Source: Sphingobacteriales bacterium 16-39-50
GTDB taxonomy: Bacteria; Bacteroidota; Bacteroidia; Sphingobacteriales; Sphingobacteriaceae
Length of the DNA stretch: 64,000 nt
Assembly: GCA_002257025.1 (NCBI GenBank)
Contig: NCHA01000001.1
Coordinates: 372,001 to 436,000, forward strand
Reading direction: 5' to 3'
Part shown: positions 839-40,107 of the stretch, in pieces
Position numbering within the stretch: the first letter of the stretch is position 1
How the letters are laid out: every line of letters starts with the position of its first letter
Notes under the pieces: generated by a model
Told to the model about the DNA's origin: nothing
Seen by the model: only the letters and a program-made list of their open reading frames with translations
Database searches by the model: none
Made by a program: the position numbers and the translations under genes

Positions 839-1222
839 TTAATTATTAATCGGTGCCCAATACGCACAATACCCTTCAGCTCGAACCGGCCCTTTAAACA
901 ACATACAACCACCGCAAGGCTTATCCTTAGCCGGTGGAAGATATAGTGCACAATTACTGCAATGACTATCCGGAATTGGTGTTTTGTTTACATATGCAAG
1001 CTTTTTACGTTTTGCAACTTCTTCGGCACTTACTCCTGTTAAGTCATCACAAGGATTTTTTTGTGCTGGTTGTGGAGTTTTTGGCTGCTGATTAGAATCC
1101 CCTTCTTTAGCCATGCTGCTTACTGAACTGCCGGCAATCAATAATCCTGTTCCTATTGCAACTGAACCAGCAAGTATATACTTACTAATAAACCTTCTTC
1201 TTGAATACTTTTGTTCTTCCAT
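839..1222 (-). CDS. Tat-exported high-potential iron-sulfur protein (HiPIP)
   Basis: 127 residues. The N-terminus carries a twin-arginine motif (SRRRFISK, residues 7-14) followed by a hydrophobic stretch, pointing to export of a folded, cofactor-loaded protein by Tat. The C-terminal domain has cysteines 88, 91, 106 and 119 in the HiPIP arrangement (CSNC, then GCMLF, then GYCAYW), which in this family ligate one 4Fe-4S cluster used as a periplasmic one-electron carrier. Two further cysteines (58 and 103) are not part of the usual ligand set. The gene sits 41 bases downstream of the dehydrogenase-like gene (stop at 1264) on the same strand, so the two may be co-transcribed and the HiPIP could accept its electrons; that partnership is inference. 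Confidence 0.88.
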   Translation of the reverse strand: MEEQKYSRRRFISKYILAGSVAIGTGLLIAGSSVSSMAKEGDSNQQPKTPQPAQKNPCDDLTGVSAEEVAKRKKLAYVNKTPIPDSHCSNCALYLPPAKDKPCGGCMLFKGPVRAEGYCAYWAPINN

Positions 1223-7609: not shown

Positions 7610-8419
7610 GTGAAAAACCTCAAATCATATTTAGAAAGCGGTATCCTTGAGCAATATGTTCTTGGTGATTTAAGCATTGAAGAGAGGCTTGAAGTAGAAA
7701 AAAACGCAGTAAAATATCCTGAGATCAAAGCAGAACTAATTGAAATTGAATCCGCTCTTTTAAGTTATGCGATGTCAAACGCTATTGAGCCTGCAGAATC
7801 ATTACGAAATAAAGTATTGAATTCCCTTGAAAAAGCTGAAGCTGATGTACGTCCTTTATATGCTGCATCACCAAAACCGGGGCAATTTTATAAATATGCA
7901 TTCGCTGCATCTCTCGCCCTTTTTTTCATTAGTGTTATTCTACTCATTAATCTAAATAGTAAACTTAACGATTCCTATACCCAGATTGCTGTGCTTCAAT
8001 CAGGAAATCAGCGCTTTTCGAACCAAGTCAATTTTATTGATGAAGAATTAAGGGATACCCGTAATGCTTTACACTTTTATCAGAACCAGGCTGCCTATAA
8101 ACTTGTGACACTCAAAGGCTCAGATAAAGCTCCGGCAGCAAGTATGCTGGTTGCCTTCAATCCGGATGAAGAAGAAGTAATGATTGATCTTTCTACCCTT
8201 AAAATGCCTTCTAATGATAAAGAACACCAATATCAATTATGGGCAATGGTAGATGGCAAACCGGTAGATCTTGGAGTATTTGACTCAGAGGTCGACAGTA
8301 CCGGTATGAAGAAAATGAAGTCTGTTAAAAATGCACAGGCCTTTGCAGTCACCCTCGAACTCCGTGGTGGCAGTGCCAATCCAACTATGGATCAGATGAT
8401 GGCTATCGGAAGTATCTGA
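7610..8419 (+). CDS. Membrane anti-sigma factor, RskA-like
   Basis: 269 residues from a GTG that follows the sigma-factor stop codon without a gap. The cytoplasmic N-terminal part (1-90) includes an anti-sigma zinc-finger-like region without the metal ligands (LEQYVLGDLSIEERLEVEK). One membrane helix is at about 95-115, then a periplasmic coiled-coil stretch (119-160) and an RskA-type C-terminal domain (about 165-269; HQYQLWAMVDGKPVDLGVF). Proteins of this type hold their sigma factor inactive until an envelope signal triggers release. Partnership with the upstream sigma factor is well supported by abutting coding regions. The signal is unknown. Confidence 0.9.
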   Translation: MKNLKSYLESGILEQYVLGDLSIEERLEVEKNAVKYPEIKAELIEIESALLSYAMSNAIEPAESLRNKVLNSLEKAEADVRPLYAASPKPGQFYKYAFAASLALFFISVILLINLNSKLNDSYTQIAVLQSGNQRFSNQVNFIDEELRDTRNALHFYQNQAAYKLVTLKGSDKAPAASMLVAFNPDEEEVMIDLSTLKMPSNDKEHQYQLWAMVDGKPVDLGVFDSEVDSTGMKKMKSVKNAQAFAVTLELRGGSANPTMDQMMAIGSI

Positions 8420-8422
8420 TTA

Positions 8423-8457
8423 GGTGTGAGGTATCAGGCATTAGGTATTAGGTAAAA
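8423..8457. repeat. Heptamer repeat array (GGTATTA-like)5
   Basis: Five 7-mers in register: GGTGTGA, GGTATCA, GGCATTA, GGTATTA, GGTAAAA. It starts four bases after the anti-sigma stop codon. Its reverse complement (TGATACC, TAATACC) resembles the array at 794-835. Confidence 0.75.
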
Positions 8458-9045
8458 GTGCCATTATTTCTTTTACAATTTCAGAGAATTACCTGGGGTT
8501 TTAGGAAGAATTTAAGACGACCATTTATTCCCTTATTCTTATCATTTTGTTTTTTTTAGAGTAAATGTTTATATTTTCTTAAAAGAAAATCCTCCCTCCA
8601 AACTTACATTCCCAATACAAGATTTCTCCATATTCTGTTCGAATCCTGGCTATACTTTGTAGCTATATGGTTCGTAAAAGAACAGGGATGTACCCTAGAA
8701 GGATCCGGGATGCCTTTGATGTTTTCCCGAAGCCTTCCCGGAACTGTCTCGGAACTGTCCCGGAACTGGTACGAAGAAAATACTAAGGACTCCCCTAGCG
8801 TTCCCGGGGAAAACCAGGTTGTGGTAAGTTCTGAAATTCTTGAAGGGATAATATTTCTTTAAAGTTAAATAGCTTTAAGAAATTTTAAGAATCAGGAGAA
8901 AAACCTTAGGTATTTATCCCTGTACTTTGATTAGCAAAACCTATATGAAAGTATGATTTTTGGGGCAGATTTACAAATGAATTATGTTTACCCGGATTTT
9001 TTCTGATCCTCCGTTCCATTGATCAGAGCTAAAACTTGAGATAGT
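8458..9045. other. Gene-poor accessory stretch with an 11-bp triple repeat
   Basis: About 590 bases without a gene I can defend. Within it, three 11-bp units run head to tail at 8737-8769 (CCCGGAACTGT, CTCGGAACTGT, CCCGGAACTGG) in a segment richer in GC than its surroundings. A 39-codon ATG frame (8667-8786) crosses these units, with a basic start (MVRKRTGMYPRRIRDAF). It has no recognisable family and may be only an accident of the repeat. Confidence 0.4.
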
Positions 9046-9079
9046 AAAAAAAAGGGCCGAATAACTAGTATTCGACCCT
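9046..9079 (-). terminator. Intrinsic terminator of the candidate small RNA
   Basis: Read on the minus strand, AGGGTCGAATA pairs with TATTCGGCCCT (one G-U pair) around a 5-base loop and runs into eight T residues. Confidence 0.75.
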
Positions 9080-11254: not shown

Positions 11255-13354
11255 ATGGAAAAAGAAGAATTGATTGAACTTCAGGTGAGCGGTATGCATT
11301 GCAATAACTGTGCGTTATCAGTCCATAAATTACTTGAAAAAAAAGGGTTGCAGGATATCTATGTTGATTTTGCGAACGATGAGGTAAAATTCAAAACCAG
11401 TAAGCCTTCAGAAACTCCACTAATTATCAAGGATATTGAAGGTTTAGGATATAAGGTAAGTGAGGAAAGTATCCCTATTCAGGAAAAATTCTTTGAAAAA
11501 GTAGAGAACAAATTCTATTTCAGCCTCATTTTTACTATTCCCCTCTTCTCACATATGTTTTTGCCTTTCCATTGGCTGCACAACCCTTTGGTTCAGTTAG
11601 GCTTATGTATTCCGGTTTATATTTTAGGATGTATCCATTTTGGCAAAAGTGCTTTCAATTCATTAAAGAATGGAATCCCAAATATGGATGTTCTTATTTT
11701 TATCGGCTCCAGTGCTGCCTTTATTTATAGTTTATATGGAACTATACAGAATTTGGGACCCGACTTTTTGTTTTATGAAACTGCAGCCACCATCATCACC
11801 CTGGTACTGTTAGGAAATGTTTTAGAAAAGAGGTCTGTAACACAAACCACATCAGCTGTCAGAGATCTGATGAAATTTCAGGAAGCAAAAGCAAATAAAC
11901 TGCTAAATGGGGAAATCTTGATAGTAAATTCACAGGAAGTAGTTCCGGGGGATACACTAGTCATCAATTCAGGTGATAAAATTCCTGTTGATGGGGAAAT
12001 CATTTGGGGTGAAGCCTCTGTCAATGAGTCGATGCTTACAGGCGAGAGTCTGCCTGTAGAGAAATCCAAATATGATCAGGTAATCGGTGGCACTTTGATT
12101 GAAAAGGGCAGCATACATATTCTGGTAACTAAAACCGGAAAACATACTATTTTATCACAGATCATTGATCTGATGAAAAAAGCACAGTCGGCAAAACCGC
12201 CCATTCAAAAATTGGGAGATCAGGTGGCCGCTATATTTGTGCCGGTAGTGGTTGGTATTGCCGTTCTAACTTTTGTTTTGGCCTATTATTCCTTTGATCT
12301 CAGCTTTCAAAAATCTATGCTGAATGCAATTGCTGTGCTGGTCATTTCCTGCCCCTGTGCTATGGGTTTAGCCACACCTACCGCAGTGATGGTTGGTTTG
12401 GGCAGAGCGGCTAAAAATGGCATTCTGATCAAGGGTGGAAATACACTTGAAGAGATAGCCAAGCTAAAATATATGGTCTTTGATAAAACTGGAACACTCA
12501 CTACCGGAAAATTCAAAATCAAAAAGATCGACAGCATAAGTATTTCGCAGAAGAAAGCTGAATCAATCATTTATGGTATAGAAGCCTATTCAAATCATCC
12601 CATTGCACGATCCCTGGTTTCTGAGCTTAGTGCAGGAAATCCTGAAAAAATAATATTCACGAAAGTATCAGAGGAAAAAGGCCTCGGAATGAACGGAACT
12701 GATTCAGAGGGAAATACCTATCAGTTTGGATCGAAACAAATCTTAGATCAGGATGAAGAACAGGGAGATTTTAGCCTTTTCCTTAAAATGAATGGAACCC
12801 TTTTGGCTCGGATTGAAATTGAAGACGAGATCAAAGCAGATGCTTCCCGACTGATCACAACTCTAAAAAATATGGGGATTAAGCCGGTTTTACTGAGTGG
12901 TGATCTGAAAAAGAAATGTGAAGATCTGGCTGCTATTTTAGGTATTGAGGAGGTATATGCCGAAACCCAGCCTCATCAGAAGCTTGAGATCATTGAAAGT
13001 ATTAAAAAAAGGGGTAAAACAGCGATGGTAGGTGATGGAATAAATGATGCCCCTGCCCTAACTACCTCAGATGTTGGAATTTCAATGAGTGATTCAAGTC
13101 AGATCGCAATCCAGTCTGCCGAAGTGGTCCTGTTAAAGAATGAACTGGGAGTTATAGATCAGATGTTACGAATCGGGAAGCATACACTTTTGACGATTAA
13201 ACAGAATCTCTTCTGGGCATTTTTCTACAATGTTGTGGCTATACCTGTAGCGGCATTTGGTTTTCTTAACCCAATGGTTGGAGCCTTAACAATGGCTTTT
13301 TCAGATGTCATTGTAATCGGCAATTCTATCCGCTTAAAAACTAAATCACTATAA
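11255..13354 (+). CDS. copA: Copper-transporting P1B-type ATPase
   Basis: 699 residues. One N-terminal heavy-metal-associated domain (GMHCNNC, C16/C19) precedes the membrane region. The ATPase hallmarks are all present: TGES in the actuator domain (about 262), the CPC metal site in a membrane helix (about 366-368), the DKTGT phosphorylation site (about 410), the SNHP motif of the nucleotide-binding domain, and GDGINDAP (about 593). The CPC site and the YN pair in the next-to-last helix (WAFFYNV) fit Cu+ export. The last helix has SDVIVIGNS rather than the textbook M-x-x-S-S, a variant I believe is usual in Bacteroidota. Expected to pump Cu+ out of the cytoplasm. No copper regulator or chaperone is adjacent. 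Confidence 0.92.
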   Translation: MEKEELIELQVSGMHCNNCALSVHKLLEKKGLQDIYVDFANDEVKFKTSKPSETPLIIKDIEGLGYKVSEESIPIQEKFFEKVENKFYFSLIFTIPLFSHMFLPFHWLHNPLVQLGLCIPVYILGCIHFGKSAFNSLKNGIPNMDVLIFIGSSAAFIYSLYGTIQNLGPDFLFYETAATIITLVLLGNVLEKRSVTQTTSAVRDLMKFQEAKANKLLNGEILIVNSQEVVPGDTLVINSGDKIPVDGEIIWGEASVNESMLTGESLPVEKSKYDQVIGGTLIEKGSIHILVTKTGKHTILSQIIDLMKKAQSAKPPIQKLGDQVAAIFVPVVVGIAVLTFVLAYYSFDLSFQKSMLNAIAVLVISCPCAMGLATPTAVMVGLGRAAKNGILIKGGNTLEEIAKLKYMVFDKTGTLTTGKFKIKKIDSISISQKKAESIIYGIEAYSNHPIARSLVSELSAGNPEKIIFTKVSEEKGLGMNGTDSEGNTYQFGSKQILDQDEEQGDFSLFLKMNGTLLARIEIEDEIKADASRLITTLKNMGIKPVLLSGDLKKKCEDLAAILGIEEVYAETQPHQKLEIIESIKKRGKTAMVGDGINDAPALTTSDVGISMSDSSQIAIQSAEVVLLKNELGVIDQMLRIGKHTLLTIKQNLFWAFFYNVVAIPVAAFGFLNPMVGALTMAFSDVIVIGNSIRLKTKSL

Positions 13355-13376
13355 TTGCGCATTAAAAGCATTTTTA

Positions 13377-13844
13377 ATGATCAATATCTATACTGACGGT
13401 GCATCGAGCGGGAATCCTGGTCCCGGAGGATTTGGGGTAATACTGCATTCAGGTAAGCATTATAAAGAAATTTCTGAGGGATATCGAAAAACAACCAATA
13501 ACCGCATGGAATTGCTCGCCGTAATCACCGGACTGGAAAGTATCAAAAATCCTGGGCAGGAGATTATGATCTATTCAGATTCTAAATATATTATCGACTC
13601 GGTTGAGAAAAAATGGGTGTTTAATTGGGTCAGGACTAACTTTAAGGATAAGAAAAACAAGGACCTATGGCTTAGATTTCTGGAGGTCTACAAACAACAT
13701 AAAATTCGTTTTACCTGGGTAAAAGGGCATAATGGTCACCCGGAGAATGAACGATGTGATGAACTGGCAGTTCAGGCTTCGAAACAAAAAAACCTTCTCA
13801 TTGATACTTATTTTGAGAAAGAGGAACTTAAATTAAATCTTTAA
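13377..13844 (+). CDS. rnhA: Ribonuclease HI
   Basis: 155 residues, the usual length. The four catalytic carboxylates are D7 ([15 protein letters not shown]), E45 (NNRMELLAV), D68 (IYSDSKYI) and D128 (NERCDELA), with the flexible-loop histidine in KGHNGH. The enzyme cleaves RNA in RNA-DNA hybrids, using two metal ions. It starts 22 bases after copA and is probably read through from it. Its stop codon overlaps the convergent fbp stop by four bases. Confidence 0.95.
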
Positions 13845-16534: not shown

Positions 16535-17194
16535 ATTTATTCTCCATAAAATAACGTGAACTCGACATTATATTTAAAAAACCGCATACCTGCCAGCAGG
16601 CAGTAAAACATAGTACTTTACAACTTCTAACCTACATTTTAGACGCAGATAGCCTTGAAGCTTCGCTTCAATCTATCTTGTTTAAAATCTATGTTTCCTT
16701 TAAAGCATAATAAATTCAATCTATGTGGTTAAATCTTAATCATTAGATAGTTTAATTTCTTACTGACGTTAAAATAAGATAAAAGCATTCTATTAGCAGA
16801 AAGCAAGCTCTTTTCTCCAGAATTTCTGATTCTAAAATATGCACAGATTAAGCAGTCCATGCTTAAACATCCCTGAAAATTCAAAATTAGAAAAAAGCTT
16901 TGCTTTCTATTGATGATTATGAAACAGGATTCCTTTCAGGATATATTAAAGTAAGATTTCAAAATTTCATATGACAGGTAATGCCTAAAATTTAATACAA
17001 AGCACATTCTACCATCCCGCAAATAAAAACCTATGTTTTCAAGAGATATGGAAGCCAAAAATCGATTTTTTCAGTAATTTTTTAATTTTTGTTCAATTTT
17101 TATGATTTTTTTATGATTTTTTTGACATTTTTTATGTTTTTACGCATCAAAACATTTATTTTTATCAAAATTTTAATCAAACCCAAGCAAAACG
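16535..17194. other. 660-bp non-coding region upstream of glnN
   Basis: No gene is supported here. From left to right it holds a short palindrome CTGCC-AGC-AGGCAG-like element (16589-16603), the dispersed repeat copy A (16645-16760), the 14-bp palindrome AAAAATCGATTTTT (17057-17070), and a very T-rich tract (about 17070-17140) with tandem TTTTTATGAT words, ending 50 bases before glnN. Confidence 0.6.
16645..16760 (+). repeat. Dispersed repeat, copy A
   Basis: A segment of roughly 100 bases that recurs inverted at 63908-64000. Its left end is an imperfect hairpin, GATAG-C-CTTGAAGC / GCTTCAA-T-CTATC (16648-16676). Relative to copy B it carries a 16-base insertion after the hairpin (about 16677-16692). 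The similarity continues through TTTAAAGCATAATAAATTCA to about 16759. Confidence 0.8.
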
Positions 17195-19369: not shown

Positions 19370-19418
19370 TATTGAGATTTGAGTACAGAGTATTGAGATT
19401 TGAAAATTCTGTACTAAG
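19370..19418. repeat. Heptamer repeat array after glnN
   Basis: It begins immediately after the glnN stop codon: TATTGAG, ATTTGAG, TACAGAG, TATTGAG, ATTTGAA, AATTCTG, TACTAAG. It shares words with the array at 19540-19595, and the glnN terminator lies between the two. Confidence 0.8.
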
Positions 19419-19421
19419 TTC

Positions 19422-19453
19422 AAAAAGAGTCCTCCTTCTGGGGGACTCTTTTT
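19422..19453 (+). terminator. Terminator of glnN
   Basis: AAAAAGAGTCCTCC pairs with GGGGGACTCTTTTT around a short loop; the second arm ends in a T-run. The flanking A-run would also let it work on the other strand. Confidence 0.88.
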
Positions 19454-19539
19454 ATTTATGATACATTAATATAATCCTGAATTAGCAGATTGATTTCGAT
19501 TACAAGTTTTTAACTAATAGTCAAAAACAAAATTTCTTG

Positions 19540-19595
19540 TATTGAGTACTAAATACTCAATACTCAATACTAAATACTCACTACTAAGTACTATT
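19540..19595. repeat. Heptamer repeat array (TACTMAA-like)8 in the purM promoter
   Basis: Eight 7-mers in exact register: TATTGAG, TACTAAA, TACTCAA, TACTCAA, TACTAAA, TACTCAC, TACTAAG, TACTATT. The last word runs into the purM -7 box. Confidence 0.9.
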
Positions 19596-19599
19596 TTTG
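19592..19599 (+). promoter_or_regulatory. -7 promoter box TATTTTTG for purM
   Basis: Exact TAnnTTTG match only six bases before the purM ATG, implying a leaderless or nearly leaderless mRNA. The upstream promoter element would have to lie inside the heptamer array. Confidence 0.6.
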
Positions 19600-19604
19600 C
19601 ATCA

Positions 19605-20798
19605 ATGTCAGATCTAAAATATAACCAGCGGGGCGTTTCTGCCGATAAAGAAGATGTGCATAATGCCATCAAAAATATAGATAAAGGTATTTTTCCAAAG
19701 GCTTTTTGCAAAATTATTCCTGATATTCTGGGATCTGATGATGATTACTGCAATATCATGCATGCAGATGGTGCCGGTACAAAATCATCTCTTGCCTATG
19801 TTTATTGGAAAGAGACCGGTGATATTTCCGTTTGGAGAGGAATTGCTCAGGATGCAATTATTATGAATCTTGACGACCTGCTTTGTGTTGGGGCCACAGA
19901 TAGTATTTTATTGTCGTCAACCATTGGCAGGAATAAAAATCTTGTTCCCGGCGAAGTCATTGCAGAACTGATTAACGGTACTGAAGATATCCTGACTGAA
20001 TTACGCAAATTAGGAATAGGAATTTATTCAACCGGAGGTGAAACCGCTGATGTTGGGGATATCGTCAGAACAATCATTGTTGATTCTACAGTAACCTGCA
20101 GAATGAAAAGATCGGATATCATCTCGAATGATAAGATCCGGAAAGGCGATGTAATAGTTGGACTATCTTCGTATGGCAAAGCCAGTTATGAAACAGAATA
20201 TAATGGAGGAATGGGATCCAATGGTTTGACCTCGGCAAGACATGATGTTTTTCAGAAATACATTGCAGAGAAATATCCTGAAAGTTATGATCCTGCGGTT
20301 CCATATGAACTGCTTTTCTCAGGGAATAAAAAACTGACGGACGTTATTAAAATACCCGCGACTGAATTTAATGAAAGTTTAAGCCTCAGTGCGGGCAAAC
20401 TGGTTCTTTCCCCAACCCGAACCTATGCTCCTATCATAAAAAAGATTCTTGATCAATACCGTTCTCAGATTCATGGTATGGTACATTGCAGTGGCGGTGC
20501 TCAGACCAAGATTCTTCACTTCATTGATAATCTTCATATCATAAAAGATAACATGATGGCTGTTCCACCACTATTTAATTTAATTCAGGAGCAATCAGGA
20601 ACAGATTGGAAAGAGATGTATAAGGTTTTCAATATGGGTCATCGGATGGAATTCTATGTACCTTCAGAAATCGCTGATGATATAATAAGAATATCAAAAG
20701 AATTCAATGTAGATGCACAAATTATTGGCCGTGTTGAGGATTCTATTAAGAAACAGGTGACTATTCGTTCGGATTATGGGGAATTTACCTATAACTGA
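19605..20798 (+). CDS. purM: Phosphoribosylformylglycinamidine cyclo-ligase (AIR synthase)
   Basis: 397 residues from the ATG at 19605 (MSDLKYNQRG). An in-frame ATG 21 codons upstream lies inside the heptamer repeats, and translating it would only read repeat sequence (KYSILNTKYSLL), so it is rejected. Family blocks: GAGTKSSLAY, DDLLCVGA, STGGETADVGD and the C-terminal ATP-binding half. The enzyme closes FGAM to AIR in de novo purine synthesis. It is similar to the longer PurM form I associate with Bacteroidota. A hairpin repeat separates it from the convergent S46 peptidase. Confidence 0.93.
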   Translation: MSDLKYNQRGVSADKEDVHNAIKNIDKGIFPKAFCKIIPDILGSDDDYCNIMHADGAGTKSSLAYVYWKETGDISVWRGIAQDAIIMNLDDLLCVGATDSILLSSTIGRNKNLVPGEVIAELINGTEDILTELRKLGIGIYSTGGETADVGDIVRTIIVDSTVTCRMKRSDIISNDKIRKGDVIVGLSSYGKASYETEYNGGMGSNGLTSARHDVFQKYIAEKYPESYDPAVPYELLFSGNKKLTDVIKIPATEFNESLSLSAGKLVLSPTRTYAPIIKKILDQYRSQIHGMVHCSGGAQTKILHFIDNLHIIKDNMMAVPPLFNLIQEQSGTDWKEMYKVFNMGHRMEFYVPSEIADDIIRISKEFNVDAQIIGRVEDSIKKQVTIRSDYGEFTYN

Positions 20799-20800
20799 AT

Positions 20801-20830
20801 AGGATTGTAGGATTAAAGGATTGTAGGATT
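20801..20830. repeat. Octamer repeat (AGGATTNN)4
   Basis: AGGATTGT, AGGATTAA, AGGATTGT, AGGATTAT, starting three bases after the purM stop. It is the only array of this kind here with an 8-bp rather than a 7-bp period. Confidence 0.75.
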
Positions 20831-20835
20831 ATAAG

Positions 20836-20888
20836 AAGGCTGACAGGGTTTGGAACCCTGTCAGCCTTTTCAAAACCCTGTCAGCCTT
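20836..20888. terminator. Dispersed 15-bp-arm hairpin, copy 1 (bidirectional terminator candidate)
   Basis: AAGGCTGACAGGGTT (20836-20850), loop TGG, AACCCTGTCAGCCTT (20854-20868): perfect arms. A second copy of the right arm follows at 20874-20888. It sits between convergent purM and the S46 peptidase gene. The same hairpin is at 29428-29460. Confidence 0.8.
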
Positions 20889-26774: not shown

Positions 26775-28163
26775 ATGAACTACGACATCATAGTTATAGG
26801 AAGCGGACCAGGCGGTTATGTGGCAGCTATTCGCGCATCTCAGTTAGGCTTAAAAGTTGCCGTTGTTGAACGGGAATCTCTGGGTGGTATTTGTTTAAAT
26901 TGGGGTTGTATTCCCACAAAAGCCCTTCTGAAAAGTGCTAATGTGTTTGAATACATAAACCATGCTGCGGATTATGGAATAAGTGTTAAGGATGCTGCAG
27001 CTGATTTTGGTGCCATAATAAAACGTAGCCGTGGTGTTGCAGATGGAATGAGCAAAGGAGTTCAGTTTCTGATGAAGAAGAACAAGATCGATGTGATCAC
27101 AGGAACCGGCAAGATGAAAAAAGGCGGAAAGGTTGAGGTTAAAGGCCCGGATGGTACAGATAAAGAATTTACAGCAAAACATATAATTCTTGCTACAGGA
27201 GGAAGATCAAGGGAACTGCCAAACCTGAAACAGGATGGGAAAAAGGTGATTGGATACCGTCAGGCAATGGTTTTACCTCAACAACCTAAATCTATGGTTA
27301 TTGTTGGTTCAGGAGCAATAGGAGTTGAATTTGCATATTTCTATAATGCTTTGGGAACTAAAGTTACGATTGTTGAATATCTCGACAATATAGTACCTGT
27401 AGAGGATGAAGACATTTCAAAACAATTACTTAGAAGCTTTAAAAAAGCAGGTATTAACGTCATGACCGGTACAAATGTTGAATCAGTAGATACTTCCGGC
27501 AGCGGGTGTAAAGTACTGGTAAAGACAGCAGTGGGTACTGAGACCATTGAGTGTGATATTGTTCTTTCAGCGATTGGGGTAAGTCCTAATATTGAAAATA
27601 TCGGAATTGAAGAAGTTGGTGTTGTTATCGATAAAGGACGTGTTAAGGTAGATGATTTTTACAAAACCAATATAGACGGTGTTTATGCAATCGGTGATAT
27701 TGTAAAAGGACAGGCTCTGGCACATGTTGCATCTGCCGAAGGCATTATTTGTGTAGAAAAGATTGCAGGTCATCATCCTGAGCCCTTAAATTATAATAAT
27801 ATACCAGGATGTACATACTGCTCTCCGGAGATTGCATCAGTTGGCTATACTGAAAAAGCTGCAAAAGAAGCCGGATACGAGATAAAAGTCGGAAAATTTC
27901 CATTTTCTGCTTCAGGAAAGGCAAGTGCTGCCGGTGCTAAAGACGGCTTCGTTAAAGTAATATTCGATGCCAAATACGGAGAGTTCTTAGGAGCTCATAT
28001 GATCGGCGCAAATGTTACTGAAATGATTGCAGAGGTTGTGGTAGCAAGAAAGCTTGAGACCACCGGTATGGATATTGTAAAAACAGTACACCCACACCCT
28101 ACTATGAGTGAAGCAATCATGGAAGCGGCTGCTGATGCATACGGTGAAGTTATACACCTTTAA
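26775..28163 (+). CDS. lpdA: Dihydrolipoyl dehydrogenase
   Basis: 462 residues. FAD-binding GSGPGGYVAA at the N-terminus, the redox-active disulfide C40/C45 (GGICLNWGCIPTKA), the NAD-binding GSGAIGVEFA, and the C-terminal interface with the catalytic HPHPTMSE histidine. It is the E3 component that reoxidises dihydrolipoamide in pyruvate, 2-oxoglutarate or branched-chain 2-oxoacid dehydrogenase complexes. No E1 or E2 genes are adjacent, so the complex it serves cannot be told. It has its own promoter box and is followed by a mirrored heptamer array. Confidence 0.95.
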   Translation: MNYDIIVIGSGPGGYVAAIRASQLGLKVAVVERESLGGICLNWGCIPTKALLKSANVFEYINHAADYGISVKDAAADFGAIIKRSRGVADGMSKGVQFLMKKNKIDVITGTGKMKKGGKVEVKGPDGTDKEFTAKHIILATGGRSRELPNLKQDGKKVIGYRQAMVLPQQPKSMVIVGSGAIGVEFAYFYNALGTKVTIVEYLDNIVPVEDEDISKQLLRSFKKAGINVMTGTNVESVDTSGSGCKVLVKTAVGTETIECDIVLSAIGVSPNIENIGIEEVGVVIDKGRVKVDDFYKTNIDGVYAIGDIVKGQALAHVASAEGIICVEKIAGHHPEPLNYNNIPGCTYCSPEIASVGYTEKAAKEAGYEIKVGKFPFSASGKASAAGAKDGFVKVIFDAKYGEFLGAHMIGANVTEMIAEVVVARKLETTGMDIVKTVHPHPTMSEAIMEAAADAYGEVIHL

Positions 28164-28166
28164 TAA

Positions 28167-28236
28167 TTGACAATTGATAGTGGACAATTGACAATTACCG
28201 GATATCAGTTGTCAACTGTCAATTGTCAACTATCAA
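28167..28236. repeat. Mirror-inverted heptamer array between lpdA and the SMR gene
   Basis: Ten 7-mers in register: TTGACAA, TTGATAG, TGGACAA, TTGACAA, TTACCGG, ATATCAG, TTGTCAA, CTGTCAA, TTGTCAA, CTATCAA. The last four are reverse complements of words in the first four, so the array can fold into a long hairpin of about 28-bp arms and could act as a terminator. Confidence 0.88.
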
Positions 28237-28246
28237 TTAAATGACC

Positions 28247-28576
28247 ATGGCCTGGATCTATCTCATAATTGGTGGCTTATTTGAAGTAGCCTTTACAAGC
28301 TGTCTGGCTAAAGCGAAGGAAGCTACAGGTATTGAGTTTGTTTTGTGGATAACGGGCTTTCTGATCAGTGTATCTATCAGTATGTATCTCTTATTCCTTG
28401 CATCCAAAACATTACCGATGGGTACCTCCTATGCTGTTTGGGCCGGAATTGGAGCTGCGGGATCAGTTATTGCAGGAATACTTCTGTTTAAAGATCCAAC
28501 CGACTTCTGGCGGATGTTTTTCCTGTTTCTTTTAATATCTTCAATCATTGGATTAAAACTTTCAAGCAAAGTCTGA
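28247..28576 (+). CDS. Small multidrug resistance (SMR) family exporter, SugE/Gdx-like
   Basis: 109 residues from the second of two in-frame ATGs (28241 and 28247); this start gives the usual MAWIYLIIGG opening. Four membrane helices are evident, and the essential glutamate of helix 1 is present (GGLFEVAF). The sequence leans toward the SugE/Gdx branch, which exports guanidinium or some quaternary ammonium compounds, rather than EmrE, but the branch call is not certain. SMR proteins work as dimers, and no second SMR gene is adjacent. Its stop is one base before the start of the metallo-hydrolase gene. Confidence 0.9.
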   Translation: MAWIYLIIGGLFEVAFTSCLAKAKEATGIEFVLWITGFLISVSISMYLLFLASKTLPMGTSYAVWAGIGAAGSVIAGILLFKDPTDFWRMFFLFLLISSIIGLKLSSKV

Positions 28577-30612: not shown

Positions 30613-33600
30613 ATGCAGCTTACACAACTGGAAATCAAAGGTTTTAAAAGCTTTGGCGATAAGATCACAATCAATTTCAATGATGGTGTAACTGCTATTG
30701 TGGGTCCAAATGGCTGTGGGAAATCGAATGTTGTAGATGCAATACGCTGGGTACTTGGAGAACAAAGTACCCGTATGCTGCGCTCTGAGAAAATGGAAAA
30801 TATCATTTTCAATGGAACAAAAACACGTAAACCTTCTAATCTTGCCGAAGTATCCCTGACATTCGATAATACCAAAAACATACTTCCTACTGATTTTACA
30901 AAGGTTACGATCACCCGTAAGCTATATCGTTCAGGAGAAAGTGAATACCGGTTAAATGATGTGCAATGCCGTCTGAAAGACATTACTGATCTGTTTCTTG
31001 ATACCGGGATAGGATCAGACTCCTACTCTATTATCGAGTTGAAAATGATCGATGAGATCATCGCCAATAAAGACAATTCAAGAAGGGCTCTATTTGAGGA
31101 GGCTTCTGGAATATCTAAATATAAGCTTAGGAAAAAACAAACCTTCAATAAATTAAAAGATACAGAGGCAGACCTTAGCCGTGTAGAGGATCTTTTATTC
31201 GAGATTGAAAAAAATCTGAAAACTCTTGAAAACCAGGCTAAAAAAGCGGAGAGGTATTACCGGCTTAAGGAACAATACAAAACATTAAGTCTGAGCCTGG
31301 CCTCCTATCGGATCATTGGATTTAGAGAATCTCTGACTAAACTTGAAGACAAGGAGCAGCTGCATTCACTGGAGAGCAGCGGGATAAACACAGAAATCAG
31401 CAATCTGGAGGCATTTTTGCAGAAATTAAAACTTGAAAACCTGAATCTGGAAAAGAATCTTTCCATTCAACAAAAAGCTACCAATGAATTTATTGCTAAG
31501 ATTCGAACTTATGAAAGTGATAAGAAATTAAAGAACGAGCAGTTACGCTTTCTTGAAGATAAAAAAACAAGACTAAGCGATGAACTTGAAAAAGATCAGA
31601 ATCAGCTTAACCATGTTTTTTACAATCAGAAGCGCTTAAATGAGGAACATTTACAGGAAAGTGAGATTCTTGAGAAGCTTCGTATTTCTACAGAAAATCA
31701 GCACCAGGGGATCATTGAACTAAGATTAGAACAGCAAAAATCAAAAGCAGCACTCGATACCATCAGCCTTGAAAATAATGAACTCCAAAATCAGGTCTAT
31801 AAACTTGAAAAGGAGATTGCAATTTTGAATATTCAGAAAGAAGCACTTTATCAGGAAAGCAGCCGGAATATGGCTGATACAGAATCTAAAGAAACTGAAC
31901 TCAATGAATTTAACAAGGTTATTACTGAGTTAAAGGGCAAACTGGAAAGTAAACAAAAGGAGTATATTCAGAATAAAGAGCTCGAAGATGAACTCGAGCG
32001 ACAAATCCGGCGCAGTACTGAGCATCTGAAGGAGCAAAAAGAAATTCTCAATCAGGAAAGCCGAAAACTCGATTCCAAACAGAATGAGTATAACCTCACC
32101 AAATCGATGGTTGATAACCTTGAAGGATTTCCGGAATCGATCCGTTTTCTGAAAAAAAATGCAGGCTGGACAAAACAGGCACCTCTTTTCTCTGACATAC
32201 TTTTTTGCCGGGAAGAATACCGGATAGCCATTGAGAACTATCTCGAGCCGGTTATGAATCATTATGTCGTAGAAACACAGGCAGAGGCAGTACAGGCAAT
32301 TCAATTGCTGAGTGATTCGTCAAGAGGACGGGCTAATTTTTTCATCCTTGATGCTTTAAATGTAGCAGGACAACGACCTTCAGTAAATACTGAACGTAAA
32401 GACCTGATTCCTGCTTTAGAAATAATCGATACAGATGCCAAATATCGGCCGCTTTGTGAAATGCTGCTCTATAATGTTTATCTGCTTCAATCAGGAGAAG
32501 AAAATGAATTACGCTCGGCTTTGCCATCAGAGCAGGTTGTTATCCTGAGTAAGACCGGGATGTTTACAAAAACCAGAACAGGAATGTCGGGTGGTTCTGT
32601 CGGACTTTTTGAAGGAAAACGAATCGGGAGAGCTAAAAATCTTGAAAAACTTTCAAAAGAAATTAATAGCGGAGAAACATTAATTGTAAAATTAAAGAAC
32701 TCCATTGCAGAAGAAGAGATCAAATTAAAAGATCTGATAGATTCCTCACAAAAAGATCTCCTACAGGAATCTCAACTGGAAATCAACAGATTGAGCAATG
32801 AGTATACTTCTGTGAAAACCAAACAGGAACAATACCTTGCTTTCATTGAAAATAGTCTCAATAGAAAACAGGATATCGAGCAAAAAATAGCGAGTATAGG
32901 AAATGAATTACTTGCATCAGAACCCCTTCTTATTGAATTAAAAGTCAGCAAACAGATTAAACAGGAGCAGGTCTTAAACGACCAGCAAAGCTATAATGAG
33001 CTTGCAGAAAGCTTAAATTCAAAATCGGCACTTTATAACCAGGAGAATATCCGCTTCCACCAACAGCAAAACAAGGTTTCGGGTATAGAAAAAGACCTTG
33101 AATACCGGGAAAGTCAGCAAAAAAACCTGGAAACGCGTATCGGTTTAAATCAAGCTGAACTTGAAAAAACACAGGCTGGAATTAAAGAAACACTTCAGCA
33201 TGCAGATCATTCTGATGAAGATCTGATTGCGATGTACGTTCAAAAAGAGGAATTTGAAGCGGCTGTTAATGAAGCTGAACAGAGCTATTATGCTTCCAGA
33301 GTGCAGATTACTGAGATGGAGGAAAAAATAAGCTTATTACGCAGAAATAAAGAACAGGCCGAGCTGATTTCCAACGAATTAAAAGATCAGAAAACAGCAA
33401 TCAAACTGGAGTTAAATGCCTTAAAGGAAAGACTGTCTGTTGAATTCGATGTTGATATTTCAGTATTGCTGGATGAAGAATCCTACGAGCAACAGACTGA
33501 TAGTGAGCAGAATATTCGTGAAAAGACCGAGCGGATAAAAAGACAACTAGATGAATTTGGCGCAATTAACCCAATGGCAATGGAAGCCTACCAGGAAATG

Positions 33601-34161
33601 AATGAACGTTATAACTTTATTCAATCTCAGAAAAAAGATTTGGCTGAAGCTAAATCATCTTTATTACAAACTATTAAAGAAATTGATGATACGGCAAAGG
33701 AGAAGTTTATGGCAGCCTTCAGTGATGTTAGGACTCATTTTATACAGGTTTTCCGTTCTCTTTTTAATGAAGAAGACAGCTGTGATCTGGTATTGGCAGA
33801 TCCTTCCAACCCGCTTGAATCTGACATTGATATTATTGCCCGCCCTAAAGGTAAGCGACCACTATCCATCAACCAATTATCCGGAGGTGAAAAGACACTG
33901 ACGGCTACGGCGCTGCTCTTCTCATTATATCTCTTAAAACCAGCCCCGTTCTGTATCTTCGATGAGGTTGATGCACCATTGGATGATACAAACATTGATA
34001 AATTCAATAATATCATAAGGGAATTTTCAGATCAGTCACAGTTTATTATTGTTTCTCATAATAAACGAACGATCGCCAGTACAGATATAATATATGGTGT
34101 GACTATGGCAGAACAGGGTGTTTCAAGGGTGGTAGCTGTTGATATTCGTGAAGTAGCATAA
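30613..34161 (+). CDS. smc: Chromosome-segregation SMC ATPase
   Basis: 1182 residues, full length for bacterial SMC. Walker A (GPNGCGKSNV, about 32-41) opens the N-terminal head. Two long coiled-coil arms (about 170-500 and 670-1010) flank a hinge (about 515-665; GFPESIRFLKKN onward). The C-terminal head has the ABC signature LSGGEKTLTATALL and Walker B FCIFDEVDAPLDD. It forms the ring-shaped condensin with ScpA and ScpB that organises and separates chromosomes; neither partner gene is in the window. Confidence 0.97.
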   Translation: MQLTQLEIKGFKSFGDKITINFNDGVTAIVGPNGCGKSNVVDAIRWVLGEQSTRMLRSEKMENIIFNGTKTRKPSNLAEVSLTFDNTKNILPTDFTKVTITRKLYRSGESEYRLNDVQCRLKDITDLFLDTGIGSDSYSIIELKMIDEIIANKDNSRRALFEEASGISKYKLRKKQTFNKLKDTEADLSRVEDLLFEIEKNLKTLENQAKKAERYYRLKEQYKTLSLSLASYRIIGFRESLTKLEDKEQLHSLESSGINTEISNLEAFLQKLKLENLNLEKNLSIQQKATNEFIAKIRTYESDKKLKNEQLRFLEDKKTRLSDELEKDQNQLNHVFYNQKRLNEEHLQESEILEKLRISTENQHQGIIELRLEQQKSKAALDTISLENNELQNQVYKLEKEIAILNIQKEALYQESSRNMADTESKETELNEFNKVITELKGKLESKQKEYIQNKELEDELERQIRRSTEHLKEQKEILNQESRKLDSKQNEYNLTKSMVDNLEGFPESIRFLKKNAGWTKQAPLFSDILFCREEYRIAIENYLEPVMNHYVVETQAEAVQAIQLLSDSSRGRANFFILDALNVAGQRPSVNTERKDLIPALEIIDTDAKYRPLCEMLLYNVYLLQSGEENELRSALPSEQVVILSKTGMFTKTRTGMSGGSVGLFEGKRIGRAKNLEKLSKEINSGETLIVKLKNSIAEEEIKLKDLIDSSQKDLLQESQLEINRLSNEYTSVKTKQEQYLAFIENSLNRKQDIEQKIASIGNELLASEPLLIELKVSKQIKQEQVLNDQQSYNELAESLNSKSALYNQENIRFHQQQNKVSGIEKDLEYRESQQKNLETRIGLNQAELEKTQAGIKETLQHADHSDEDLIAMYVQKEEFEAAVNEAEQSYYASRVQITEMEEKISLLRRNKEQAELISNELKDQKTAIKLELNALKERLSVEFDVDISVLLDEESYEQQTDSEQNIREKTERIKRQLDEFGAINPMAMEAYQEMNERYNFIQSQKKDLAEAKSSLLQTIKEIDDTAKEKFMAAFSDVRTHFIQVFRSLFNEEDSCDLVLADPSNPLESDIDIIARPKGKRPLSINQLSGGEKTLTATALLFSLYLLKPAPFCIFDEVDAPLDDTNIDKFNNIIREFSDQSQFIIVSHNKRTIASTDIIYGVTMAEQGVSRVVAVDIREVA

Positions 34162-35653: not shown

Positions 35654-37033
35654 ATGGCAAAAATATTAATCATTGATGATGAGAGGGCAATCCGAAATAC
35701 TTTAAGAGAAATACTTGAATATGAAGAGTACCAGGTTGAAGATGTAGATAATGGAATCGATGCATTAGCACTGATCAGGAAAAATGAGTATGATCTGGTT
35801 CTTTGCGATATAAAAATGAATAAAATGGACGGTCTGGAGGTTCTTACTGAAGGACTTAAAATCCAGCCTGATCTGCCATTTATTATGATTTCTGGTCATG
35901 GGACAATTGAAACAGCAGTAGAAGCCAGTAAAAAGGGTGCCTATGACTTTATTTCTAAACCACCTGATCTTAATCGCTTACTGATAACGGTAAGGAATGC
36001 TTTAGAACGTAAAACTCTGGTAACAGAAACAAAAGTTTTAAAGCGTAAGGTAAGCAAGACACGTGAGATGCTGGGCAATTCAGCAGCTATTGAACGAATC
36101 AAAGCTACTATTGAAAGGGTTGCCCCTACTGATGCAAGGGTACTTATTACAGGAGCAAATGGAAGCGGAAAAGAGCTTGTGGCCCGCTGGCTACATGAAA
36201 AGTCAAATCGTGCCAACTCTGTACTTGTTGAGGTGAATTGTGCCGCAATACCATCAGAACTAATTGAAAGTGAGCTTTTTGGGCATGAGAAGGGATCTTT
36301 TACTTCAGCCATCAAACAAAGAATAGGAAAATTTGAACAGGCAAGCGGCGGCACTTTGTTTCTAGATGAAATCGGTGACATGAGTCTTTCAGCACAGGCA
36401 AAAGTTTTGCGTGCTCTTCAGGAAAATAAAGTAACGCGGGTTGGTGGCGAAAAAGAGATTGATGTAGATGTCAGGGTAATTGCTGCAACAAATAAGGACC
36501 TTCAAAAGGAAATTGAAGCAGGAAATTTCAGAATGGATTTATACCATCGCTTAAGTGTAATACTGATCCATGTACCCCATTTAACTGAAAGAAGGGAAGA
36601 TATACCACTTATTGCACAAAATTTCTGTGAAGAAATATGTAATGATTACGGAATGCCTGTTAAAAAAATAAGCGATTCGGCAATGATAGCATTACAGGAT
36701 ATGAACTGGACTGGTAATATCCGGGAGCTTCGCAATATGATTGAAAGACTAATCATTTTGAGTGATAAATTAATTACTGAAGCTGATGTTACCAATTATG
36801 CAAATCCATCTTCTTTTTCACCTGGATCTGAAAGTCCATCAGCAGCACCTCAACAAAATTTTGACCAATTCACAAACTTTCAAGAGTACAAAGATTTTGC
36901 AGAAAAGGACTATATCAAATACAAGCTGGAAAAAAATAACTGGAATGTGTCCAAAACAGCAGATGACATAGATATACAAAGAAGTCATCTATACAGTAAA
37001 ATTGAGAAATATGGCCTGAAAAGAGCAGATTAA
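35654..37033 (+). CDS. NtrC-family response regulator with AAA+ domain
   Basis: 459 residues. Receiver domain 1-120 with phospho-acceptor D52 (LCDIKM). AAA+ domain about 140-375 with Walker A GANGSGKE (about 166-174) and Walker B GGTLFLDEIGD. The C-terminal Fis-type helix-turn-helix is at about 425-459 (NWNVSKTADDIDIQRSHLYS). The loop that contacts sigma-54, normally GAFTGA, reads GSFTSA (about 214-219). Phosphorylation should trigger ATP-driven remodelling of a sigma-54 promoter complex, unless the altered loop has changed that role. No histidine kinase is adjacent. Confidence 0.92.
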   Translation: MAKILIIDDERAIRNTLREILEYEEYQVEDVDNGIDALALIRKNEYDLVLCDIKMNKMDGLEVLTEGLKIQPDLPFIMISGHGTIETAVEASKKGAYDFISKPPDLNRLLITVRNALERKTLVTETKVLKRKVSKTREMLGNSAAIERIKATIERVAPTDARVLITGANGSGKELVARWLHEKSNRANSVLVEVNCAAIPSELIESELFGHEKGSFTSAIKQRIGKFEQASGGTLFLDEIGDMSLSAQAKVLRALQENKVTRVGGEKEIDVDVRVIAATNKDLQKEIEAGNFRMDLYHRLSVILIHVPHLTERREDIPLIAQNFCEEICNDYGMPVKKISDSAMIALQDMNWTGNIRELRNMIERLIILSDKLITEADVTNYANPSSFSPGSESPSAAPQQNFDQFTNFQEYKDFAEKDYIKYKLEKNNWNVSKTADDIDIQRSHLYSKIEKYGLKRAD

Positions 37034-37088
37034 GCAGAAAGCTTAAAGCGAATCCAGCTTTATCCTTTCAGCTTTAAACTTTTAGCTT
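37033..37088. repeat. Mirror-inverted heptamer array between convergent genes
   Basis: Eight 7-mers from 37034: GCAGAAA, GCTTAAA, GCGAATC, CAGCTTT, ATCCTTT, CAGCTTT, AAACTTT, TAGCTTA. The right part is the reverse complement of an AAAGCTN-type word found in the left part. It starts at the regulator stop codon and ends two bases before the pntB stop. Confidence 0.82.
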
Positions 37089-38869: not shown

Positions 38870-38922
38870 ATAATATATTGTCTAACAAATTTTGTGTTTA
38901 AGTGGTTTGAAGTAGTTTTAAA

Positions 38923-38985
38923 ACTTATTACCTACTACTTACAACTTACTACTTATTACTTATTACTTACAACTTACTACTTATT
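38923..38985. repeat. Heptamer repeat array (ACTTAYT-like)9 overlapping the pntAA 3' end
   Basis: Nine 7-mers in exact register: ACTTATT, ACCTACT, ACTTACA, ACTTACT, ACTTATT, ACTTATT, ACTTACA, ACTTACT, ACTTATT. The last two words contain the final codons and the TAG stop (38977-38979) of pntAA on the other strand. Confidence 0.92.
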
Positions 38986-40107
38986 ACCCGTCAATTCCTT
39001 CACCCTGTCATTACACACTTCACCATTATTACTTATGCATGTACCTTTCACAAGATCATCTTCAAAATTTAAATTGAGTTGTCCCTCTTTACCGATGATG
39101 AGCTGCAGAAAGTTTAAAATATTCTTTCCATATAATTTACTTGCATCAGATGGCATTGTGCCCTGCAGGTTTGAATTGCCAATGATGGTTACATTTTTAT
39201 ACACGACGGTTTCACGGTCTTTGGTTCTGGTTGTATTACCTCCAGTGATCGATGCCAGATCGATAATAAGAGAACCAGGCTTCATATTATCCAAAATACT
39301 GTCGGGTATTAGAATTGGAGCCTTTTTGCCCGGAATCTGTGCGGTTGTTATGATTACATCAGCCTTTGATGCAACCTCGGCGATCCTTGCCTGTTGTTTT
39401 TGTTTATATTCTTCGGTTTGATCAACTGCATAACCACCGGCCTTTGAAGCATCGAGGGCGCCTTCAACTTCTATAAACTTAGCACCCAGACTCATCACTT
39501 CTTCTTTAACAGCCGGGCGGGTATCAAAAACTTCAACTACAGCACCTAAACGTTTTGCTGTCGCGATTGCCTGGAGTCCGGCAACTCCTGCTCCCAGTAT
39601 CATCACTTTTGCAGGTGCTATACTTCCTGCAGCGGTCATAAACATCGGGAAATACTTGGGAAGTTGCATTGCAGCCAGAATCACAGCTTTATAGCCTGCA
39701 ATATTAGCCTGAGAACTAAGTATATCCATACTTTGCGCTCTAGTTGTACGGGGCAGCATATCCATACTAAAAGTGGTGAATCCTTGCTCCGCCCATTTCT
39801 TAATTAATTCGAAATTGGCCAGCGGATTAAAAACACCCAATATTACAGCTGATTTTTTGGCTTTGTTAAGATCATCCTCAGTTAGGGGATGGATACTTAA
39901 TAAAATATCTGAATTTTTTAAAACATTCTCTCTTGAACTGATCTCCGCACCCTGTTCAGAATAGAGTGTGTCAGGAGCAAATGCATTTGCGCCGCAATTG
40001 CTTTCGGCTAATACATTTATATTTTGTTTCTTCAGGACTGAAATGTGTTCGGGAATTAATGATACCCGTGTTTCCGGGGAGGGCTCAAGCAAAATACCAA
40101 TAGTCAT
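38977..40107 (-). CDS. pntAA: NAD(P) transhydrogenase subunit alpha, NAD-binding part
   Basis: 376 residues. Alanine-dehydrogenase/PNT N- and C-terminal domains with the nucleotide-binding loop MILGAGVAGLQAIATAKRLGA (residue run at about 170-190), and the mobile RQD-type loop region near SMDMLPRTTRAQSMD. This soluble domain I binds NAD(H) on the cytoplasmic side of the transhydrogenase. It is the first gene of the pnt set. Its last codons (N-K-stop) are read from the heptamer array. Confidence 0.95.
   Translation of the reverse strand: MTIGILLEPSPETRVSLIPEHISVLKKQNINVLAESNCGANAFAPDTLYSEQGAEISSRENVLKNSDILLSIHPLTEDDLNKAKKSAVILGVFNPLANFELIKKWAEQGFTTFSMDMLPRTTRAQSMDILSSQANIAGYKAVILAAMQLPKYFPMFMTAAGSIAPAKVMILGAGVAGLQAIATAKRLGAVVEVFDTRPAVKEEVMSLGAKFIEVEGALDASKAGGYAVDQTEEYKQKQQARIAEVASKADVIITTAQIPGKKAPILIPDSILDNMKPGSLIIDLASITGGNTTRTKDRETVVYKNVTIIGNSNLQGTMPSDASKLYGKNILNFLQLIIGKEGQLNLNFEDDLVKGTCISNNGEVCNDRVKELTGNK

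Follow-up and report, generated by a model that had tools for sequence, protein, structure and literature searches.

The spacer between a glutamine synthetase III gene and an AIR-synthase-related gene of Sphingobacteriales bacterium 16-39-50 carries two tracts of degenerate 7-bp words, and this raises the question of what such arrays are and which process keeps a step of seven while the words themselves drift. The window, by which we mean the whole stretch of 64,000 nucleotides that was analysed, covers G000:C1:372001-436000 of a 4.10 Mb genome in 74 contigs; protein relatives of the product of 19605-20798 come from the Sphingobacteriaceae (Pedobacter, Mucilaginibacter, Sphingobacterium). A first-pass annotation of the window had listed eight heptamer arrays between genes, several of them with a TAC(T/C)-type core, and had proposed that they result from slippage copying or are read by a protein with a fixed period. 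Here, self-similarity at period p was scored along the sequence and compared with dinucleotide shuffles, and for single arrays we recorded how many of 300 dinucleotide shuffles, including 60 bp of flank, reached the period-7 score. Gene borders were taken from simple ORF-based calls rather than curated annotation. The own genome was sampled as stretches, namely the window and 800 kb more of the same contig, and was accompanied by genomes of the same genus at a range of distances (the protein encoded at 30613-34161 being 98% to 41% identical), around 1 Mb of named Bacteroidota loci and around 40 more stretches from relatives, with E. coli K-12 and cyanobacterial plasmids as comparison sets. All eight arrays are real, two of them being weak, and they are given below with two neighbouring features; none has an assigned strand.

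675-711 (listed first as 669-710): left (G-type) arm with TGTCTGA/GATGTCT words; period-7 score 12, reached in 0/300 shuffles
795-850 (listed as 794-835): right (C-type) arm in one region with 675-711, TGATACC/TGATACT; score 33, 0/300
8422-8454 (listed as 8423-8457): left (G-type) arm, AGGTATT/AGGTATC; score 14.75, 0/300
19370-19418: weak left (G-type) arm with a TTGAGTA-like word; 6/300, the weakest of the eight
19421-19452: ordinary intrinsic-terminator-like hairpin with a T run, recognised from its sequence
19539-19593 (listed as 19540-19595): right (C-type) arm, TACTCAA/TACTAAA; score 27.75, 0/300
20800-20836: G-type array with a period of 8 bp, TAGGATTG; period-8 score 15.5, 0/300
28160-28239 (listed as 28167-28236): complete two-arm element; score 21.25, 0/300, hairpin z of -6.6, with compensatory changes
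37033-37088 (better limits 37055-37088): weak two-arm element, AAAGCTT/AGCTTTA; 2/300 at period 7, 0/300 at period 14
38918-38987 (listed as 38923-38985): right (C-type) arm, TTACTAC/ACTTACA; score 36, 0/300

At the locus from which the question arises, the weak left arm sits at the stop of the glutamine synthetase III gene, with matching sequence in two same-genus genomes, G019 and G007. The right arm directly precedes the AIR-synthase-related gene (ATG near 19605) and has six units in all three genomes, with unit-level replacements. Between the two arms and separate from them lies the hairpin at 19421-19452, which is found in orthologues with and without arrays. The right arm terminates in a TATTTTTG box (19590-19605), which has the Bacteroidota -7 promoter form TAnnTTTG and is kept in relatives in which the array differs or is absent. 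A T-rich array with a period of 11 bp, TTTTTATGATT, occupies 17081-17141 upstream of the glutamine synthetase III gene, and the 8-bp array begins right past the stop at 20798. Elsewhere in the window, the array at 795-850, which is paired with that at 675-711, runs into the 3' end of the ORF at 839-1222 (-), and the one at 8422-8454 starts 2 bp past the stop of the ORF at 7610-8419 (+). No such array is found at the orthologous site of the latter in G019 and G007, where the spacer is around 535 bp shorter. The insert that these two genomes lack (window positions ~8455-9046) contains the 11-bp repeat TTCCCGGAACTG, which is also present in an insert at a purM-like locus of G003 and looks like a dispersed MITE-like element. 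The element at 28160-28239 fills its spacer from stop (28163) to start (28241), with the G-type arm at 28164-28198 and the C-type arm at ~28205-28239. The weak element at 37033-37088 lies between convergent genes, and its orthologues have other words in mirror order. The array at 38918-38987, whose word is identical in G019 and G007, is located at the 3' end of an AlaDh/PNT-type gene (38977-40107, -) within a pnt gene row.

Shuffled intergenic sequence yields no arrays, which favours the original observation. In the intergenic DNA of the window (6.8 kb) there are four strong period-7 arrays versus 0.0 in shuffles, and 43 kb of own intergenic DNA yielded 15 at the main cut-off and 10 at a stricter cut, again versus 0.0; the other periods give 0-4 arrays each in these 43 kb, the harmonics 14 and 21 excepted. 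Coding sequence of the own genome holds no period-7 array at the main cut-off. At a laxer cut-off, 56 of 60 arrays in 864 kb of own sequence are intergenic, a number that extrapolates to around 270 intergenic arrays genome-wide. The location between genes, often at a stop codon, is borne out as well: 44 of 57 arrays lie at most 10 bp from a gene border versus 16.9 under random placement in the same 864 kb. The neighbouring genes are ordinary metabolic or regulatory genes. Over all sampled Bacteroidota, the intergenic arrays number 116 at period 7, 14 at period 8 and 15 at period 11 (these counts pool related genomes and are thus non-independent), and the remaining non-harmonic periods are few, except for the double of 8. 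Fresh genomes gave 34 arrays at period 7 and at most 2 at any other non-harmonic period, and 100 kb of E. coli gave none at period 7. No period other than 7 is strongly enriched in intergenic DNA. The words do include the TAC(T/C) core, but this is just one of several families.

Apart from the 8-bp array, two properties go beyond the first-pass annotation, namely a mirror polarity and a complementarity of the arms. Arrays on the left side of an intergenic region have more G than C and those on the right side more C than G, whatever the strand of the genes (40:5 on the left and 56:3 on the right; 12:0 and 17:3 in fresh stretches). Read outward from the gene, the strand is C-poor and G-bearing both at stop borders (A 0.38, C 0.08, G 0.27, T 0.27) and at start borders (A 0.32, C 0.09, G 0.26, T 0.33), so that the 5' arm, on whichever strand, has little C and ~26% G, and the 3' arm is its mirror. 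Of the 43 pairs of arrays in a shared region, 36 have the G-type arm on the left and the C-type arm on the right, and none has the opposite order, the other seven having a neutral arm or two arms alike in type. As eight G/C pairs have both arms nearest to one gene, the order of G and then C is a property of the pair and not of the border alone; single arrays near a gene also obey it. Period-8 arrays follow the polarity in 10 of 11 cases, with words elsewhere that include GATTTGNN and AATCCTAT. Period-11 arrays have no polarity and, because they do not share it, seem to be of a different kind. A codon-based cause of the polarity, with stops supplied past genes and starts avoided before genes, was rejected: the incidence of these codons in the words equals that in shuffled words, and stop and start codons therefore fail to explain it.

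The two arms within a region are more complementary to each other (0.358) than to shuffled partners (0.261 +/- 0.025). At least 70% Watson-Crick pairing is found in 27 of 58 pairs, and 31 of 58 are not complementary. The clearest case is the spacer at 28163-28241, which separates a pyridine-nucleotide-disulphide oxidoreductase gene from a small SMR-family gene and forms a single hairpin from the stop codon to the start codon. Despite words that differ (TTGACAG, TTGAGAG, GTGGAGA, AAACTGA and others), each of the eight orthologues examined folds into this hairpin (z -3.8 to -9.7), and across them double compensatory changes are seen at 7 of 20 consensus pairs; arm covariation was followed in detail at this spacer only, and the wider complementarity is statistical. 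In paired arms, 183 pairs have G in the 5' arm and C in the 3' arm versus 42 in the opposite orientation. In co-directional regions, G.U and A.C mismatches occur about equally often on the sense strand (12 versus 14, small numbers), which favours pairing at the DNA level over pairing at the RNA level.

A hairpin that persists in eight genomes with compensatory changes could also reflect selection on RNA. According to this explanation, the arrays are bidirectional terminators or 3'-end/processing stems, in which the pairing is kept while the sequence drifts, and the conserved loci and the arms that follow stop codons fit with it. However, selection for RNA wobble pairs was rejected because sense strands show no preference for G.U over A.C, roughly half of the pairs have arms that do not match, a separate ordinary terminator stands between the arms at 19370-19595, and pairs are also found in divergent regions, in which a terminator is not needed. 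We consider selected RNA hairpins unlikely.

The same architecture is found outside the Bacteroidota. When window positions 28150-28250 were compared by BLAST with 72,556 plasmid records, seven records matched, all of them cyanobacterial. A plasmid of Annamia dubia, pANN4383.04, contains at the junction of two annotated genes (L253 1504-1588) a double-arm element that is 81% identical to window positions 28158-28239. The cyanobacterial plasmids examined share the period of 7 and the polarity (13:1) with the own genome. A vocabulary common to Cyanobacteria and Bacteroidota was considered, with 7 of 16 words shared versus 2.2 for shuffled words, and is not claimed because reversed words also give 7. 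Pure arrays gave no BLAST matches among plasmids and phages, which is probably an effect of the low-complexity filter. These plasmids also bear on the proposal that the arrays are transcription insulators, which stop untranslated read-through into the next gene by means of Rho-loading-like RNA. The strand that enters a gene is G-poor, with ~26% C and 8% G in both directions, as the mirror of the outward strand, and, as an insulator needs, the polarity does not depend on the direction of the genes. On the other hand, several words have no YC step (ACTTACA, ACTAACA), and the polarity recurs in a cyanobacterium, a group usually regarded as lacking Rho. The proposal also leaves the 7-bp period and the covariation of the arms unaccounted for, and we regard it as distinctly improbable.

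In addition, the positions of the arrays are more stable than their words, which are replaced in place out of a small vocabulary used at many loci. Where a region of the own genome has arrays, a relative has them too in 21 of 34 comparisons, versus 10 of 191 for regions without, and 11 of 20 orthologous arms share a word versus 5.2 for shuffled loci, although the sample is small. In favour of the original observation, array length and word vary among orthologous loci, as compared between species. The right arm at 793144 consists of CAACTGT in the own genome, an AATTCTC-like word in G019 and CTTACAA in G007, and the left arm at 786795 of GGAATAG in the own genome and AAAGCTG in G019, with the polarity kept at both places. 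Within a genome, 103 locus pairs have an identical consensus word versus 4.3 expected, and the dominant words differ by genome: G002 has many occurrences of the TACT(N3) pattern and none of the GTCAANT pattern. Nearly perfect CAACTGT arrays are present in G019 (C22:48077-48245, L194; 17+ units) and in the own genome (C1:702992-703091; ~14 units), and such very long arrays suggest recent expansion. A MITE-like insert with the ends CACTGTTGTCCGG...CCGGACACTAGTG adjoins heptamer arrays at L124 ~13333-13515 (own C1:793333-793515) and at L209 ~1623-1960; the own insert is flanked by two near-identical copies of an array-bearing spacer, and a related copy lies beside an array elsewhere in G019.

Words that recur at many loci, mirror arms that resemble terminal inverted repeats and the fact that a MITE-like insert adjoins arrays in two genomes would all be compatible with non-autonomous transposable elements that spread words by transposition. 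We nevertheless find such mobile elements quite unlikely as an explanation, since array sites are conserved over the genus while the words change, which is the reverse of transposition, and since the polarity recurs in another phylum. Y1/RAYT-type transposase genes do not track the arrays (none is found in the array-bearing G002 and G018), and a RAYT transposase was rejected as the driver on this lack of correlation. Loss of the hairpin nuclease SbcCD was likewise rejected as a cause. The gene sbcD is missing in 18 of the 20 same-genus genomes G000-G019, including that of the window, yet G037 and G035 are rich in the TACT pattern and have SbcD, and many pattern-poor genomes are without it; this comparison was judged by the TACT pattern only.

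Local slippage that acts independently at each locus, with arms and loci unrelated, would explain what is seen within arrays. The locus at 635545 has ~7, 17+, 4 and 2 units in four genomes, that is, it changes its length in whole units; polymorphism is even over the seven columns, which also led us to reject a unit designed as a fixed core plus spacer; and transitions exceed transversions (234 versus 154). To this extent the slippage proposed at first stands. It fails for the mirror polarity, for the way in which the two arms covary and for the words common to many loci, none of which is expected from local events, and as a complete explanation purely local slippage is very improbable. The other initial proposal, a protein that binds heptamers at a fixed period, could draw on the strict register and on arrays at promoters or 5' ends such as that abutting the TATTTTTG box at 19593, but it is highly improbable given that no column of the unit stands out as conserved, each genome has many unrelated words and words are replaced at conserved orthologous loci.

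We propose that a combination of slippage, hairpin template switching and exchange between arrays best explains the pattern, and assign to it a probability of roughly 45%. According to this combined mechanism, the arrays are arms of small intergenic inverted-repeat elements that are capable of forming hairpins, each arm being built of tandem heptamers. Slipped-strand mispairing in 7-nt steps would make, lengthen and shorten the arms. In complementary pairs, the replicating strand may fold back and copy one arm onto the other by template switching, a quasipalindrome correction that would place a new word in both arms and hence change the words in concert. Recombination over short homology between similar arrays could then spread words among loci, swap arms and produce mixed pairs. 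No sequence-specific function would be required. The 5'G-3'C excess has the same direction as an asymmetry that has been linked to template switching (PMC8794818). Several observations speak against the mechanism. It does not account for the polarity, including that of unpaired arms, or for the size of the 5'G-3'C excess: symmetric template switching alone creates no order of G at the 5' and C at the 3' side, and the published explanation of the asymmetry uses G.U intermediates (PMC8794818), of which no excess is seen here. Furthermore, more than half of the pairs (31/58) are non-complementary, many arrays with no detectable partner still follow the polarity, word replacement is seen between species and not as single events, and covariation is detailed at one locus.

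Looking beyond the mechanism, we think it quite possible, if short of probable, that the arrays represent a previously undescribed cross-phylum class of inverted-repeat elements with heptamer-array arms, genus-stable sites and concerted rewriting, whose general polarity, with a C-poor 5' and a G-poor 3' arm, implies an unrecognised process at gene borders that is linked to replication or transcription. The heptamer repeats thereby become a rule with testable parts, namely the 7-bp step, the mirror polarity that does not depend on gene orientation and the replacement of words at fixed places. As a sharp regularity, the polarity would have to be reproduced by any account of how gene borders, replication or the termination of transcription work in these phyla. 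If the combined mechanism is true, slippage and hairpin template switching in wild bacteria are naturally recorded at these loci, and the arrays rank among the main sources from which Bacteroidota and Cyanobacteria gain new intergenic sequence.

How do these elements compare with known systems? REP/BIME and ERIC are palindromic intergenic elements that occur near gene ends in many copies, and the present elements are like them in all of these respects. Unlike REP/BIME, they have no conserved element sequence, their arms are built of tandem heptamers, their words differ between loci and orthologues, and the Y1 (RAYT) transposase genes are absent in G002 and G018, which nonetheless bear arrays. 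No description of the mirror architecture, of how general it is or of the concerted replacement of words was found in the searchable literature, which covers few subscription journals. Intergenic heptamer repeats as such are already published, Bacteroidetes included. Contrary to the first-pass annotation, which knew of no described counterpart in Bacteroidota, TAACTGA heptamer direct repeats are reported from Beggiatoaceae, Cyanobacteria and five Bacteroidetes, often adjoining start codons and with other heptamer repeats mentioned alongside (MacGregor 2015, PMC4679880). The present arrays share with these the 7-bp direct repeat, the intergenic location and the occurrence in Cyanobacteria and Bacteroidetes. 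In Flexibacter litoralis, 12 of the 14 sets precede a start in forward orientation and one follows directly on a stop in reverse, an arrangement that fits the polarity described here. TAACTGA units make up one own array (C1:447231-447289) and other words dominate; as only this one listed array has TAACTGA, the arrays are of the heptamer-repeat kind and are not TAACTGA repeats. Relative to what the accessible text of PMC4679880 describes, they add many words per genome, a mirror polarity independent of gene orientation, hairpin covariation and word replacement at conserved sites. According to a statement in that text, long repeats in most genomes are most often made of heptanucleotides (Mrazek 2007, cited in PMC4679880). 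Heptanucleotide units also dominate among cyanobacterial STRR repeats and long simple sequence repeats (Mrazek 2007, cited in PMC4679880) and among heptamer satellites (PMC6749651), with slippage proposed as the source; these works treat single tandem tracts and, in the accessible text, do not deal with arms, polarity or covariation as found in the present arrays. Finally, template switching has been described to make and keep hairpins in RNA genes, with a 5'G-3'C stem excess that was explained by G.U intermediates (PMC8794818). In both systems the two arms change together and the 5'G-3'C excess is found, but there the arms are unique sequences of RNA genes, whereas here they are tandem heptamers across intergenic DNA.
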